This document shows positions 17,714-20,294 of a stretch of 64,000 bases of DNA, piece by piece. The position numbers and the translations under genes were made by a program. How positions within the stretch are numbered: the stretch's first letter is position 1; each line of letters opens with the position of its first letter. This DNA is from Niastella vici (lineage in GTDB: Bacteria; Bacteroidota; Bacteroidia; Chitinophagales; Chitinophagaceae): the NCBI RefSeq assembly GCF_002077945.1, contig NZ_LVYD01000057.1:62001-126000 (forward strand). Direction: 5' to 3'. Under the pieces are notes generated by a model that did not search any database, had not been told where the DNA came from, and was given only the letters and a program-made list of their open reading frames with translations.

Positions 17714-17743
17714 TTTGCAACTAAAGAATTAGTTATACATTTG
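17714..17743 (+). promoter_or_regulatory. Promoter of the BlaI/BlaR1-amidase operon
   Basis: TTTG at 17714-17717, an 18-nt spacer and TACATTTG at 17736-17743 match the Bacteroidetes -33/-7 consensus completely. Transcription should start near 17750, about 20 nt before the ATG at 17769. The spacer is filled by a dyad operator and a second one covers the start site. Confidence 0.8.
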
Positions 17744-17765
17744 ATCAACAACTAAAAGATTAGTT
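17719..17765 (+). promoter_or_regulatory. Two dyad operators for the BlaI-type repressor
   Basis: Two copies of AACTAA-N4-TTAGTT, at 17719-17734 and 17750-17765, with centres 31 bp apart (about three helical turns, same face). The first lies exactly between the -33 and -7 boxes and the second over the transcription start and leader. BlaI/MecI repressors bind dyads as dimers, so repression of their own operon is the expected role; the assignment is inference from position and symmetry. Confidence 0.78.
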
Positions 17766-17768
17766 ATA

Positions 17769-18140
17769 ATGAAATCCCTTACAAAAGCCGAAGAACAGGT
17801 AATGCAGATCCTGTGGCAATTAAAACATGGTTTTCTGAAAGATATCATGGATCTGATGCCCGAGCCCAAACCTCATTCAAATACCATCGCTACCATTCTT
17901 AAAATATTGATTGAGAAAGGATTTGTGAATTTTGAAGTACAGGGCAGGAATAATCTGTATAAACCCGCCGTAAGCAAGGCCGAATACGGGAAGAAAAGCA
18001 TCAACCAGCTGGTGAAAGGGTATTTTGAAGGTTCGGCCGCCAACCTGCTTTCGCATTTCGTGAACGAAAACAAACTCAGCCAGCAAGACCTGGAGGCTTT
18101 GTTAGAACAGATCAAAAACGCCAAAAACAATAACCAATGA
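17769..18140 (+). CDS. BlaI/MecI/CopY-family repressor
   Basis: A 123-residue winged-helix repressor. The N-terminal helix-turn-helix reads LTKAEEQVMQILWQLKHGFLKDIMDLMP, followed by the recognition helix region SNTIATILKILIEKGFV and the wing GRNNLYKP; the C-terminal helices (AANLLSHFVNENKLSQQDLEALLEQI) serve dimerisation. Repressors of this family are inactivated by proteolysis by a BlaR1-type membrane protease, and such a gene overlaps it by 4 nt (ATGA). The two dyads in its promoter point to self-regulation. Confidence 0.95.
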   Translation: MKSLTKAEEQVMQILWQLKHGFLKDIMDLMPEPKPHSNTIATILKILIEKGFVNFEVQGRNNLYKPAVSKAEYGKKSINQLVKGYFEGSAANLLSHFVNENKLSQQDLEALLEQIKNAKNNNQ

Positions 18141-20239
18141 CCTTTTTGCTGTACCTGGGAAAAGTAATGCTGTGCTCCGGCATTCTGCTGGGCTATTACT
18201 GGCTCTTTTTACGCAACCGGCGGTTTCACCATTATAACAGGTTCTACCTGCAGGCCACCCTGCTGCTGTCGGTGGTATTGCCTTTCGTAAGGATTCCGGT
18301 GCTGAATACGCCGCATAGCCGGATGAGCCATGCAGTTTATCAAACGTTGGAAGTGCTTACCGTAAATTATGGTGAAGAAGAGACCGGGAAGGCAGGCCCC
18401 GGCGCCCTGGAAAGGCTGCTCACGCTGGAAAATGCCCTGTATCTTTTCTATATTATAGGTATTGTGATCCTGCTGGGGCTGCTCATACGATCATTATTAT
18501 ATATTAAACGCATTTCGAAACAATACCCGTTTGAACGCATCGGGGGGTTGAAGTTCTTTTCCACCCGCGAACCGGGTACGCCTTTTTCGTTCTTCCGGTC
18601 AATTTTCTGGAATAACGACCTGGCCTTTAACAGCCGCGACGGGCAGCAGATCTTTCGCCACGAACTGTTTCATGTTGAACAAAAACACTCTACCGATATT
18701 ATACTCACCGAGATCGTAACTGCCTTTTTCTGGTTCAATCCGTTCTTTAATCTCCTTAAAAAGGAATTGAAGGCCATTCATGAATTCCTGGCCGATCAAT
18801 ATGCCATTTCAGACAATGACCGCTACGCTTATGCCGAACTGCTGGTTCTGCAAACGCTGAAAGCCAATCATATTTCCATTACCAATTATTTTTTCCAAAA
18901 CCATATCAAAAGACGTATAGCCATGATCACAAACAACCAAAGAACGCGGTACAGCTACCGCAGCCGTTTAATGGCCCTGCCCGTATTTGCATTGGTATTT
19001 TGCAGCATTGCATTGTATGCACAACGGTCAGCCAATTCTGTTACAAAGATCTTTCGTCCCGGTTACGCCGAAAAACCAATTACAGTGGTTATCGATGCAG
19101 GCCACGGCGGCATTGATCCCGGCGCTGCCAGCCTCGATGGAAAAGTGAAAGAAAAAGACCTTGCGCTGGACATATGCAAGAAAATTCAGCAGTTGGCCGC
19201 TTCTTACAATGTAAACGTTGTAATGACCCGCACCGACGATAATTTACCGGGTGGCACTACTGTTATACATGATGGATTAAGGGCCCGTACAGAAATTACA
19301 GAAAAGGCAAAAGCAGATCTGTTTATAGCTATTCACGTTTCCAGTACCGACCCTAAAAATCCAGACCCTACCAGAAGCGGTATTGAAGTTTATATTCCCA
19401 ATAAAGAAAGCGACCGCACCAATCAATCAAAACAACTGGGTTCTGTTCTTGTACAGGAGTTAAGCACATTGTACGCGACCGACCCAACCTTAAAACAACG
19501 GCCACAGAATATTTGGGTGCTGGAACAAACGCCCTGCCCCGCCCTGCTCATCGAATGCGGATTCATCACCAACGATAAAGACCTTGCCTTTATCAGCAAC
19601 AGCGGCAACCAGGAAGCCGTTGCCAAAAAGATACTGGAAGGCATTGTGAACTTTAAAAACAAACCGGCAGCAGCAGCTAATGCAATAACCACCGGCCAAC
19701 CTGTTGTTAAAACCACACCGGTTGAAAAACCAAAACCAGCCACTGTCACGGCCGCCCCTGCTGTTCAGGTAATACCTGCCAGTATGGAGTTACCGGTTGC
19801 TCAAACCCAACCGGCTGAACCCACAGCTTCACTAATAGAATCTGCCATTGCAATTGCCCAGATACCCGACCCGGTGATCGCAAAAATTTCAAGACATTTC
19901 AACCGCAATACACGGTATCCCCAAAAATTGATGGAAAGTAATGCAGAAGCTGTTGTATATTTTTCAGTAAGTGTCGATAAGAATGGGGACTTCAGCAATC
20001 TTCAATTCTATAATGAGGCACCAGCCAAGGCTTCTCCCTTAAGCAAATTGACAGTCGTTGGCTATGGACCAGCACCTACCGGGCAACTTTCAGCCGAAGA
20101 AAGTCAAAACCTGTTCCGGGAAGAAGTGAAAAGGGTTTTTGAAAGGAAAGCCGATCTGTCGAACAGCGTTCCTCAGGCTGAACAATACTTCTTCAGGGCA
20201 GCATGGGTACTGGAGAAAGATATACCGAAAACAGTTTAA
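18137..20239 (+). CDS. BlaR1-type M56 protease fused to N-acetylmuramoyl-L-alanine amidase and a TonB-like domain
   Basis: A 700-residue inner-membrane protein with an unusual architecture. Helices at about 4-25, 37-56 and 100-123 precede an M56 metalloprotease domain with HELFH at 175-179 and the third zinc ligand E216 in HEFLAD; a helix at about 279-296 then crosses to the periplasm. Residues 315-505 are an Amidase_3 domain: DAGHGG (H323), E339, AIHVSS (H400) and LIECGF (E473) are the expected zinc and catalytic residues. A Pro/Ala/Thr linker (508-565) leads to a TonB C-terminal-like domain (about 578-695, YPQKLMESNAEAVVYFSV ... FRAAWVLEKD). It is presumably the sensor-protease for the co-transcribed BlaI-type repressor, with a peptidoglycan-binding or cleaving domain in place of the beta-lactam sensor. 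Confidence 0.92.
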   Translation: MTFLLYLGKVMLCSGILLGYYWLFLRNRRFHHYNRFYLQATLLLSVVLPFVRIPVLNTPHSRMSHAVYQTLEVLTVNYGEEETGKAGPGALERLLTLENALYLFYIIGIVILLGLLIRSLLYIKRISKQYPFERIGGLKFFSTREPGTPFSFFRSIFWNNDLAFNSRDGQQIFRHELFHVEQKHSTDIILTEIVTAFFWFNPFFNLLKKELKAIHEFLADQYAISDNDRYAYAELLVLQTLKANHISITNYFFQNHIKRRIAMITNNQRTRYSYRSRLMALPVFALVFCSIALYAQRSANSVTKIFRPGYAEKPITVVIDAGHGGIDPGAASLDGKVKEKDLALDICKKIQQLAASYNVNVVMTRTDDNLPGGTTVIHDGLRARTEITEKAKADLFIAIHVSSTDPKNPDPTRSGIEVYIPNKESDRTNQSKQLGSVLVQELSTLYATDPTLKQRPQNIWVLEQTPCPALLIECGFITNDKDLAFISNSGNQEAVAKKILEGIVNFKNKPAAAANAITTGQPVVKTTPVEKPKPATVTAAPAVQVIPASMELPVAQTQPAEPTASLIESAIAIAQIPDPVIAKISRHFNRNTRYPQKLMESNAEAVVYFSVSVDKNGDFSNLQFYNEAPAKASPLSKLTVVGYGPAPTGQLSAEESQNLFREEVKRVFERKADLSNSVPQAEQYFFRAAWVLEKDIPKTV

Positions 20240-20263
20240 ATATAATATTCAGTAACAGATCTG

Positions 20264-20294
20264 GGCCATCCCGCTTTGCGGGATGGCCTTTTTT
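20264..20294 (+). terminator. Terminator of the BlaI/BlaR1-amidase operon
   Basis: GGCCATCCCGC and GCGGGATGGCC pair perfectly over 11 bp with a TTT loop and are followed by six T residues, 24 nt past the stop codon. Confidence 0.93.

Follow-up and report, generated by a model that had tools for sequence, protein, structure and literature searches.

A 64,000-nucleotide stretch of the Niastella vici genome (Chitinophagaceae; contig NZ_LVYD01000057.1, positions 62,001 to 126,000, forward strand; hereafter the window) carries a two-gene unit made of a BlaI-type repressor gene and a gene for a fusion protein, in which an M56 membrane protease is followed by a cell-wall amidase of the Amidase_3 family and a TonB-like domain. 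The unit is a real variant of the BlaR1-BlaI system and is conserved in many genera. A wall amidase, apparently active, stands in for the beta-lactam sensor, and the operators are private to the operon. Our proposal, to which we give a probability of about 0.5, is that of a self-regulated, membrane-tethered wall amidase on a BlaR1-BlaI chassis, with a periplasmic part that would provide the input of the M56-BlaI switch.

The antibiotic sensor BlaR1 is the classic example of a protein through which an external signal crosses the membrane and leads to the destruction of a repressor. In the environmental bacteria considered here, this switch would be tied to an enzyme that cuts the wall, and its operators form a nearly self-contained set. 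Besides antibiotic resistance, the BlaR1 chassis may therefore have a role in wall surveillance. The two-gene unit bears on the way in which bacteria monitor and restrain their wall hydrolases, as its sensor, effector and output could be separated by single point mutations.

The repressor gene and the protease-amidase fusion

The span initially noted, 17769-20239, consists of two genes, blaI and then the fusion. As the initial annotation had it, the repressor gene overlaps the fusion by 4 nucleotides (nt), ATGA, at 18137-18140. The genes, the domains of the fusion and the hairpin behind it are as follows.

17769-18140, plus strand: blaI, BlaI/MecI/CopY-type repressor of 123 amino acids (aa) (Penicillinase_R, 2e-29)
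18137-20239, plus strand: M56 - Amidase_3 - TonB-like fusion of 700 aa (open reading frame, Pfam, motif residues, fold model)
18623-18928, plus strand: Peptidase_M56 core, residues 163-264, with HELFH 175-179, HE 215-216 and AD 219-220 (Pfam; motif invariant in 46/46 fusions)
18956-19054, plus strand: fourth predicted membrane helix, residues 274-306, after which the periplasmic part begins (model; charges of the preceding stretch)
19085-19648, plus strand: Amidase_3, residues 317-504, with H323, E339, H400 and E473 (Pfam, motif residues, fold)
19670-19843, plus strand: predicted disordered linker, residues 512-569 (predicted local distance difference test, pLDDT, below 50)
19844-20227, plus strand: TonB C-terminal-like domain, residues 570-697 (pLDDT near 94 over most of its length; fold)
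20263-20294, plus strand: terminator-like hairpin of 12 pairs, with a T run (consensus scan)

The repressor was assigned to its family by a Penicillinase_R score of 102.7 bits (Pfam cut-off 22.6) and by a PDB match to MecI (1sd6, 2.2e-8); the palindromic operators that such repressors have at their own promoter appear to be present too, as the operator-like palindromes described below. The hairpin at 20263 has the longest stem of the 10 sites found by the terminator consensus scan of the window (3.8 expected). As it lies behind the fusion, the transcription unit is probably made of blaI and the fusion alone. Elsewhere in the window genome, M56 and Amidase_3 recur, the totals being seven M56 matches, six of them above the cut-off, and four Amidase_3 matches.

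In the fusion, Peptidase_M56 scores 50.4 bits (Pfam cut-off 31) and the zinc site of the M56 family is in place. Amidase_3 reaches 136.4 bits (cut-off 27) and covers positions 1-173 of the 174 of its profile. The residues named initially for the two domains (HELFH 175-179, E216, H323, E339, H400 and E473) are all correct in the sequence; we take H323, E339 and H400 to be the zinc ligands and E473 the catalytic glutamate. The C-terminal penicillin-binding or class D beta-lactamase-like sensor of BlaR1 and MecR1 is missing, Amidase_3 and the TonB-like domain standing there, and the NCBIfam model blaR1_generic gives 24.8 bits against a cut-off of 400.

An AlphaFold2 model of the fusion, built from 46 fusions, had a mean pLDDT of 81.6, with helices predicted at residues 2-25, 31-50, 97-129 and 274-306. 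Its amidase domain (pLDDT about 95) superposes, by Foldseek, on CwlD of Clostridioides difficile (7rag, E 1.7e-15). For the membrane and protease part, the best Foldseek matches were BlaR1 entries of Staphylococcus aureus: 8exp with E 3.2e-6, but with a poor overall superposition (root-mean-square deviation, rmsd, of 19.9 across a multi-domain chain), and 8exr, which holds the membrane and protease domain, with E 6.7e-3, a template-modelling (TM) score of 0.53 by target and an rmsd of 2.8 over 169 columns. The profile coverage, the CwlD-like fold and the BlaR1-like order of helices thus bear out the initial view of a complete Amidase_3 domain in place of the penicillin sensor. The C-terminal domain fared less well. 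Its TonB_C match (residues 591-626) has 13.2 bits, below the Pfam cut-off of 24.6; modelled alone (pLDDT 84.1), it has TonB C-terminal domains as its best Foldseek PDB matches, but with E about 0.05 or worse. The TonB-like assignment therefore stands on predicted fold, with weak statistics, and has modest support.

According to the positive-inside rule, positively charged segments stay in the cytoplasm. The stretch preceding the last helix has 6 K/R but lacks D/E, and a positive loop joins the first helix to the second, which argues for a topology like that of BlaR1, with a cytoplasmic M56 protease and a periplasmic amidase, followed there by the TonB-like domain. The 173 profile positions of the fusion amidase extend across 188 residues, compared to 256 residues in the separate amidases that neighbour M56 genes at loci L060 and L062, meaning that the fusion amidase is devoid of their large insertion (loci and genomes are given by L and G numbers). 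In E. coli amidases, such an insertion holds an autoinhibitory part. If the fusion amidase does lack autoinhibition, it would need a control of dosage, as the operon provides. The amidase gene behind M56 in L060, L062 and L088 was considered as a transferred effector and was not counted as part of the same operon, because a hairpin-like stretch with a T run lies between the genes and the amidase has a signal-peptide-like start (by eye).

Operators and promoter

Two BlaI-type operators and a candidate promoter, which the initial annotation does not mention, lie just upstream of blaI.

17714-17717, plus strand: TTTG, possible -33 element, 18 nt ahead of the -7 box (sequence compared to the consensus in PMC7366714)
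17719-17734, plus strand: BlaI-type operator 1, AACTAAAGAATTAGTT, between the -33 and -7 elements (perfect palindrome)
17736-17743, plus strand: -7 promoter box TACATTTG (TAnnTTTG; match to the Bacteroidota consensus)
17750-17765, plus strand: BlaI-type operator 2, AACTAAAAGATTAGTT, just ahead of the start codon (perfect palindrome)

Both operators are perfect palindromes, AACTAA-N4-TTAGTT, and flank the -7 box, operator 1 occupying the spacer between -33 and -7 and operator 2 standing immediately behind the -7 box. We take their ACTA-N6-TAGT motif to resemble the staphylococcal operator. Boxes were found in the 900 base pairs (bp) ahead of the fusion gene in 52 of 59 fusion loci (window included), and TAnnTTTG occurs in the operator region of 33 of these 52, mostly directly behind the box, against a mean of 3.4 and a largest value of 9 in mononucleotide shuffles. 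The passages of PMC7366714 at hand give a Bacteroidota promoter consensus of TTTG near -33 and TAnnTTTG at -7, and add that Flavobacterium yielded no -33 motif. A blaI gene was called at most 6 kb upstream in 56 of the 59 loci, usually touching the fusion gene, and none was called in the remaining 3; the exact 4-nt overlap recurs in 23 of 59. Two or more ACTA-N6-TAGT boxes within 300 bp of blaI were scored in 48 of the 56 loci with a called blaI, and in 0 of 200 mononucleotide shuffles.

In the 10.06-Mb window genome, ACTAAN4TTAGT has 2 sites, both at this operon, against 10 for a reversed-pattern control. Allowing one mismatch, the 16-mer has 11 sites, the operon's two included (control 59), and the relaxed tandem operator pair occurs in one place, at this operon (control 2). 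The control patterns are different words and serve as a rough yardstick; the counts cover exact sites, one-mismatch sites and relaxed pairs. A separate target gene of BlaI was considered and rejected, as no other exact operator or relaxed pair is present in the 10.06 Mb. Exact sites and relaxed pairs likewise pointed to no beta-lactamase or penicillin-binding protein gene under operator control in this genome, a target with a degenerate single box being possible. With no other exact operator in the genome, the amidase would be the main enzymatic output.

The operator pair was also searched for in 24 of the 44 fusion genomes other than the window's own. It was recovered in 24/24 (control 3/24), in one place in 22 of them and in two places in G028 and G063, part of the places being inspected gene by gene. 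In G035 the pair precedes the start of a blaI-M56 locus at a contig end, and the fusion was found on another contig. In G070 and G141 a permease gene of MacB/FtsX type stands between the pair and blaI; this 797-aa gene (L215 and L216, the type being given by scan in L215) apparently forms one unit with what follows. The second pair of G063 (contig C52, L218, 2362-2399) is directly ahead of a gene for a DUF418 membrane protein, and that of G028 (contig C3) is between a redoxin-domain gene and a thiolase-like gene, the latter named by eye. Among the paralogous blaI-M56 loci of the window genome, L003 and L004 have other boxes, TACTATATTTATAGTA and AACTACAACTGTAGTT respectively, and no box was found in L002 and L005. 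The BlaI-partnered M56 paralogue of L003 (G000, contig C2, about 390550-391443) has the third and fourth domains of GldM, a gliding and type IX secretion protein, as its periplasmic part.

Spread, conservation and parallel fusions

The initial annotation knew of no amidase between M56 and TonB domains. Searches of open-licence papers likewise listed none on an M56-amidase fusion, but the architecture is common in the family. Some match at E 1e-10 or better was obtained in 122 of 147 same-family genomes (window's own included), and a single match running from M56 into the amidase in at least 45 of the 147, with 35 genus codes. This hand count required a match start at query residue 15 or before and an end at 403 or beyond, with up to seven candidates scored per genome, and is a lower bound. 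G122, G079 and G089 reach just 403, 408 and 431, the matches of G108, G042 and G097 are interrupted by stop codons, and G107, which has both domains in a single 826-aa frame but as two separate matches, is left out. Fusions are present in Niastella, Longitalea, Ferruginibacter and metagenome-assembled genomes (MAGs) of Chitinophagaceae. In the Niastella and Longitalea loci (L038-L045) the match extends to residue 693-700, the C-terminal domain of L043 being in another frame. As to the taxonomic spread that the initial annotation proposed to check, a class-wide search of 395 genomes found both-domain matches outside the family in G480 and G283 alone, both of family f35; up to three candidates were scored per genome, and this lower bound missed triple M56-M23-Amidase_3 proteins. 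Chance or an assembly artefact was rejected as the origin of the fusion, since the architecture is conserved across many genera.

Residues were compared in 44 distinct fusions (the window and 43 loci, four duplicates removed). The M56 motifs HExxH, HE and AD, and the amidase residues H323, E339 and H400, are kept in 44/44; in the slightly different set of 46 fusions the M56 motif and the amidase zinc ligands are likewise invariant. E473 is kept in 38 of 42 scored fusions, gaps leaving it unscored in L028 (a partial match) and L061. Given this conservation, the enzyme chemistry appears to be under selection. The same residues bear on the idea that M56 has lost its signalling role and is a membrane anchor for the amidase. 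M56 protease activity in the fusions is a prediction, which leaves room for that idea; the active site invariant in 46/46, the near-constant presence of blaI upstream (56/59) and the conserved operators make it extremely improbable.

Pfam domains over the 46 fusions were Amidase_3 (46), M56 (46), TonB_C (24), Plug (15) and Por_Secre_tail (4); over 63 amidase-free M56 relatives, chosen from 100, they were M56 (62), TonB_C (21), Plug (8) and M23 (1), with one each of the third and fourth GldM domains, both in L003. TonB and Plug domains, being present with and without the amidase, are thus optional partners of M56. In L060 a TonB-dependent-receptor Plug and a TonB C-terminal domain share one chain. 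The Por secretion-system sorting domain of four fusions, C-terminal in L018, the one inspected, is odd for an inner-membrane protein. At L248 (G065) and L250 (G145), blaI is followed by two tandem M56 genes, the second with the amidase. On a tree of M56, made by a quick method and rich in long branches, the amidase label has to change nine times, and starred branches force six or more of these changes. As gain and loss are not told apart by the tree, we do not use it to count fusion events.

One M56 relative, L159, is an M56-M23 protein. Used as a query, it gave one match spanning M56 and M23 in at least 11 places of at least 10 of the 395 class genomes, in 6 family codes (hand count with up to four candidates per genome, a lower bound; the match of G414 and one of the two in G467 have a stop inside). 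In ten such loci, L160-L169, Pfam finds both domains, the M23 motifs HxGxD and HLH are intact, and the gene immediately upstream encodes BlaI in 10/10. Boxes, mostly single, lie ahead of 7 of the 10, and were not found before L163, L168 and L169. L168 (G353) and L169 (G507) are BlaI-partnered chains of 646 aa holding M56, M23 and Amidase_3 together. By their domain content, unrelated wall hydrolases are joined to what looks like the same M56-BlaI switch, and the retention of the M23 motifs suggests that catalysis matters in two unrelated folds.

Possible workings of the switch and comparison with known systems

In the circuit that we propose, BlaI dimers would sit on both operators and keep the blaI-fusion operon off. 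As an inner-membrane protein, the fusion would expose its M56 zinc protease to the cytoplasm, and its amidase and TonB-like domain to the periplasm. This periplasmic part would register changes in the wall, most simply by occupancy of the amidase with substrate or product, or else through the TonB-like end. M56 would then become active and, as in BlaR1, cleave BlaI, and the derepressed operon would yield more amidase, plus more repressor that resets the system. Such a circuit would act as a homeostat that keeps the cleavage of peptidoglycan amide bonds in balance. With this operon as the sole strong operator target, induction would make amidase and repressor, and the amidase or its product would be the natural input. 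A sensor function is plausible, and the amidase may itself be the sensor; binding or cleavage of stem peptides, as proposed in the initial annotation, would be a candidate signal. The genomic evidence fits the amidase as regulated output at least as well.

Five observations weigh against the proposal. First, the region of BlaI where cleavage would occur is loosely conserved: aligned at what we take to be the position of the staphylococcal cut site, the residue is F, M, L or I in 56/56 (16, 20, 18 and 2 respectively), mostly preceded by F or H. Second, the nine further one-mismatch sites of the genome are possible degenerate operators. Third, fewer than two boxes were found in 8 of 56 fusion loci (one box in 3, none in 5). 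Fourth, the catalytic glutamate is replaced by Q in L025 and L059 and by H in L057 and L058, with zinc ligands kept, a pattern more in keeping with binding than with an output enzyme. Fifth, L051-L053, L055 and L056 (a Niastella MAG, two Paraflavitalea, a Chitinophagaceae isolate and a Pseudobacter MAG) keep the operators, BlaI and an M56 protein without the amidase, meaning that the switch in itself does not depend on it. The fourth and the fifth pull in opposite ways, and neither is decisive.

The amidase-free loci suit an account where the amidase is an effector only, the fusion merely tethering and co-regulating the enzyme, and where M56 would sense the membrane state, the loop between the second and third helices, or TonB-like or Plug domains meeting an outer-membrane partner. 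The catalytic glutamate is mostly retained, and TonB_C and Plug accompany M56 with or without the amidase. G013 (L221) fits this account and the self-regulated amidase alike: a separate 271-aa amidase, best family CwlD, lies there between an FtsE-like gene and the operators, after which come blaI and an amidase-free M56-Plug protein, so that the parts of the fused pair are, as the sequence reads, neighbouring genes. Yet the amidase takes the position of the BlaR1 sensor, its match starting, in the fusions listed, at most about 35 residues past the end of the M56-part match, and the short fusions L057, L058, L133, L138 and L139 have no further domain behind the amidase. We regard this account as possible, if rather doubtful.

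The sensor of BlaR1 is a penicillin-binding protein that hardly turns over. In the same position, the amidase could be a receptor for peptidoglycan fragments, with catalysis serving for signal turnover only, and with more receptor and the targets of degenerate operators as output. The four fusions with Gln or His instead of the glutamate, zinc ligands retained, are what a receptor might look like. Given the 38 of 42 that keep it and the intact HxGxD and HLH of the ten parallel M23 domains, such a receptor is unlikely.

The amidase might instead make the inducer, releasing stem peptides from which a D-Glu-meso-diaminopimelate dipeptide would arise and bind BlaI as in Bacillus licheniformis, cleavage by M56 being secondary. 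According to the parts of PMC3305447 at hand, gamma-D-Glu-meso-diaminopimelate dissociates BlaI from its operator, and the amidase would supply the upstream peptide. The affinity given in the same parts is millimolar, though, and the operon has no other gene for import or trimming of peptides, which leaves this scheme very unlikely.

Returning to the self-regulated amidase, the neighbourhood of the operon was compared in 66 loci. An ATP-binding cassette (ABC) ATPase gene lies at most two genes upstream of blaI in 24 of them, an RpoD-like gene in 17, and a PurM-like gene lies downstream in 32 (the names RpoD, TrxB, DeoR and PurM were assigned by eye). Two scanned ATPases had FtsE as best NCBIfam family, with 239 and 236 bits, below the cut-off of 265. 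Boxes are within 300 bp of the called start in 23 of 28 FtsE-like rows, 20 of these within 151 bp; the count was by hand with start codons as called, and L049 is a second copy of the G019 locus. In genomes with such a shared operator region, BlaI could also govern the ftsE-like gene. In E. coli, FtsEX controls amidases via EnvC (PMC13204101, in the passages at hand), and a link from ftsE to the amidase through shared operators is suggestive. In the window genome this arrangement is absent, the fusion adjoining an RpoD-like gene and not ftsE. Away from the operon, positions 1-241 of the window, minus strand, hold a bacterial RNase P class A RNA interrupted by the window end.

As a tentative extension, in which we place little confidence, M56 proteins with peptidoglycan-hydrolase ectodomains (Amidase_3, M23, or both) would form a general class of Bacteroidota wall-cleavage homeostats. 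Turnover by the ectodomain would be the input and the same enzyme the output, via a BlaI whose operators are private. Many relatives would also have a divergent ftsE-like gene under these operators, so that amidase dosage would be coupled to the ABC transporter of division.

Of the known systems, BlaR1/MecR1-BlaI/MecI of Staphylococcus aureus and Bacillus licheniformis (BlaR1 is reviewed in PMC7593790) is alike in its four-helix M56 part in the same order, its overlapping BlaI-family repressor and its palindromic promoter operators. It differs in having a penicillin-binding domain where the fusion has Amidase_3 and a TonB-like periplasmic part, and here no separate target gene was found, the exact operator being at the own operon only. 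CwlD/CwlV-type amidases (7rag, 4rn7 and 1jwq) share the compact fold and active-site residues, but here the domain is fused behind a signalling protease, beside its repressor. The product name 'M23/M56 family metallopeptidase' is in use at NCBI. M23-M56 proteins, in which an M56 peptidase is again linked to a wall hydrolase, are also in print as an architecture, M23 hydrolases having been reviewed in 2022 (PMC9662197); their hydrolase fold is unrelated to Amidase_3, and the passages at hand give the architecture without BlaI or operators. The same passages list M56 and amidase among the second catalytic domains of under 1% of M23 proteins, and report a role of M56 in peptidoglycan cleavage as not shown. 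WalRK control of CwlO and LytE in Bacillus subtilis (PMC7299342) also lets the state of wall cleavage set hydrolase levels, but by a two-component kinase and separate hydrolases, with no protease and no fusion. FtsEX-EnvC-AmiA/B of E. coli (PMC13204101) is likewise a membrane device controlling amidases, and an FtsE-like gene shares the operator-bearing region in many relatives of our fusion; its control, however, is post-translational and passes through EnvC.

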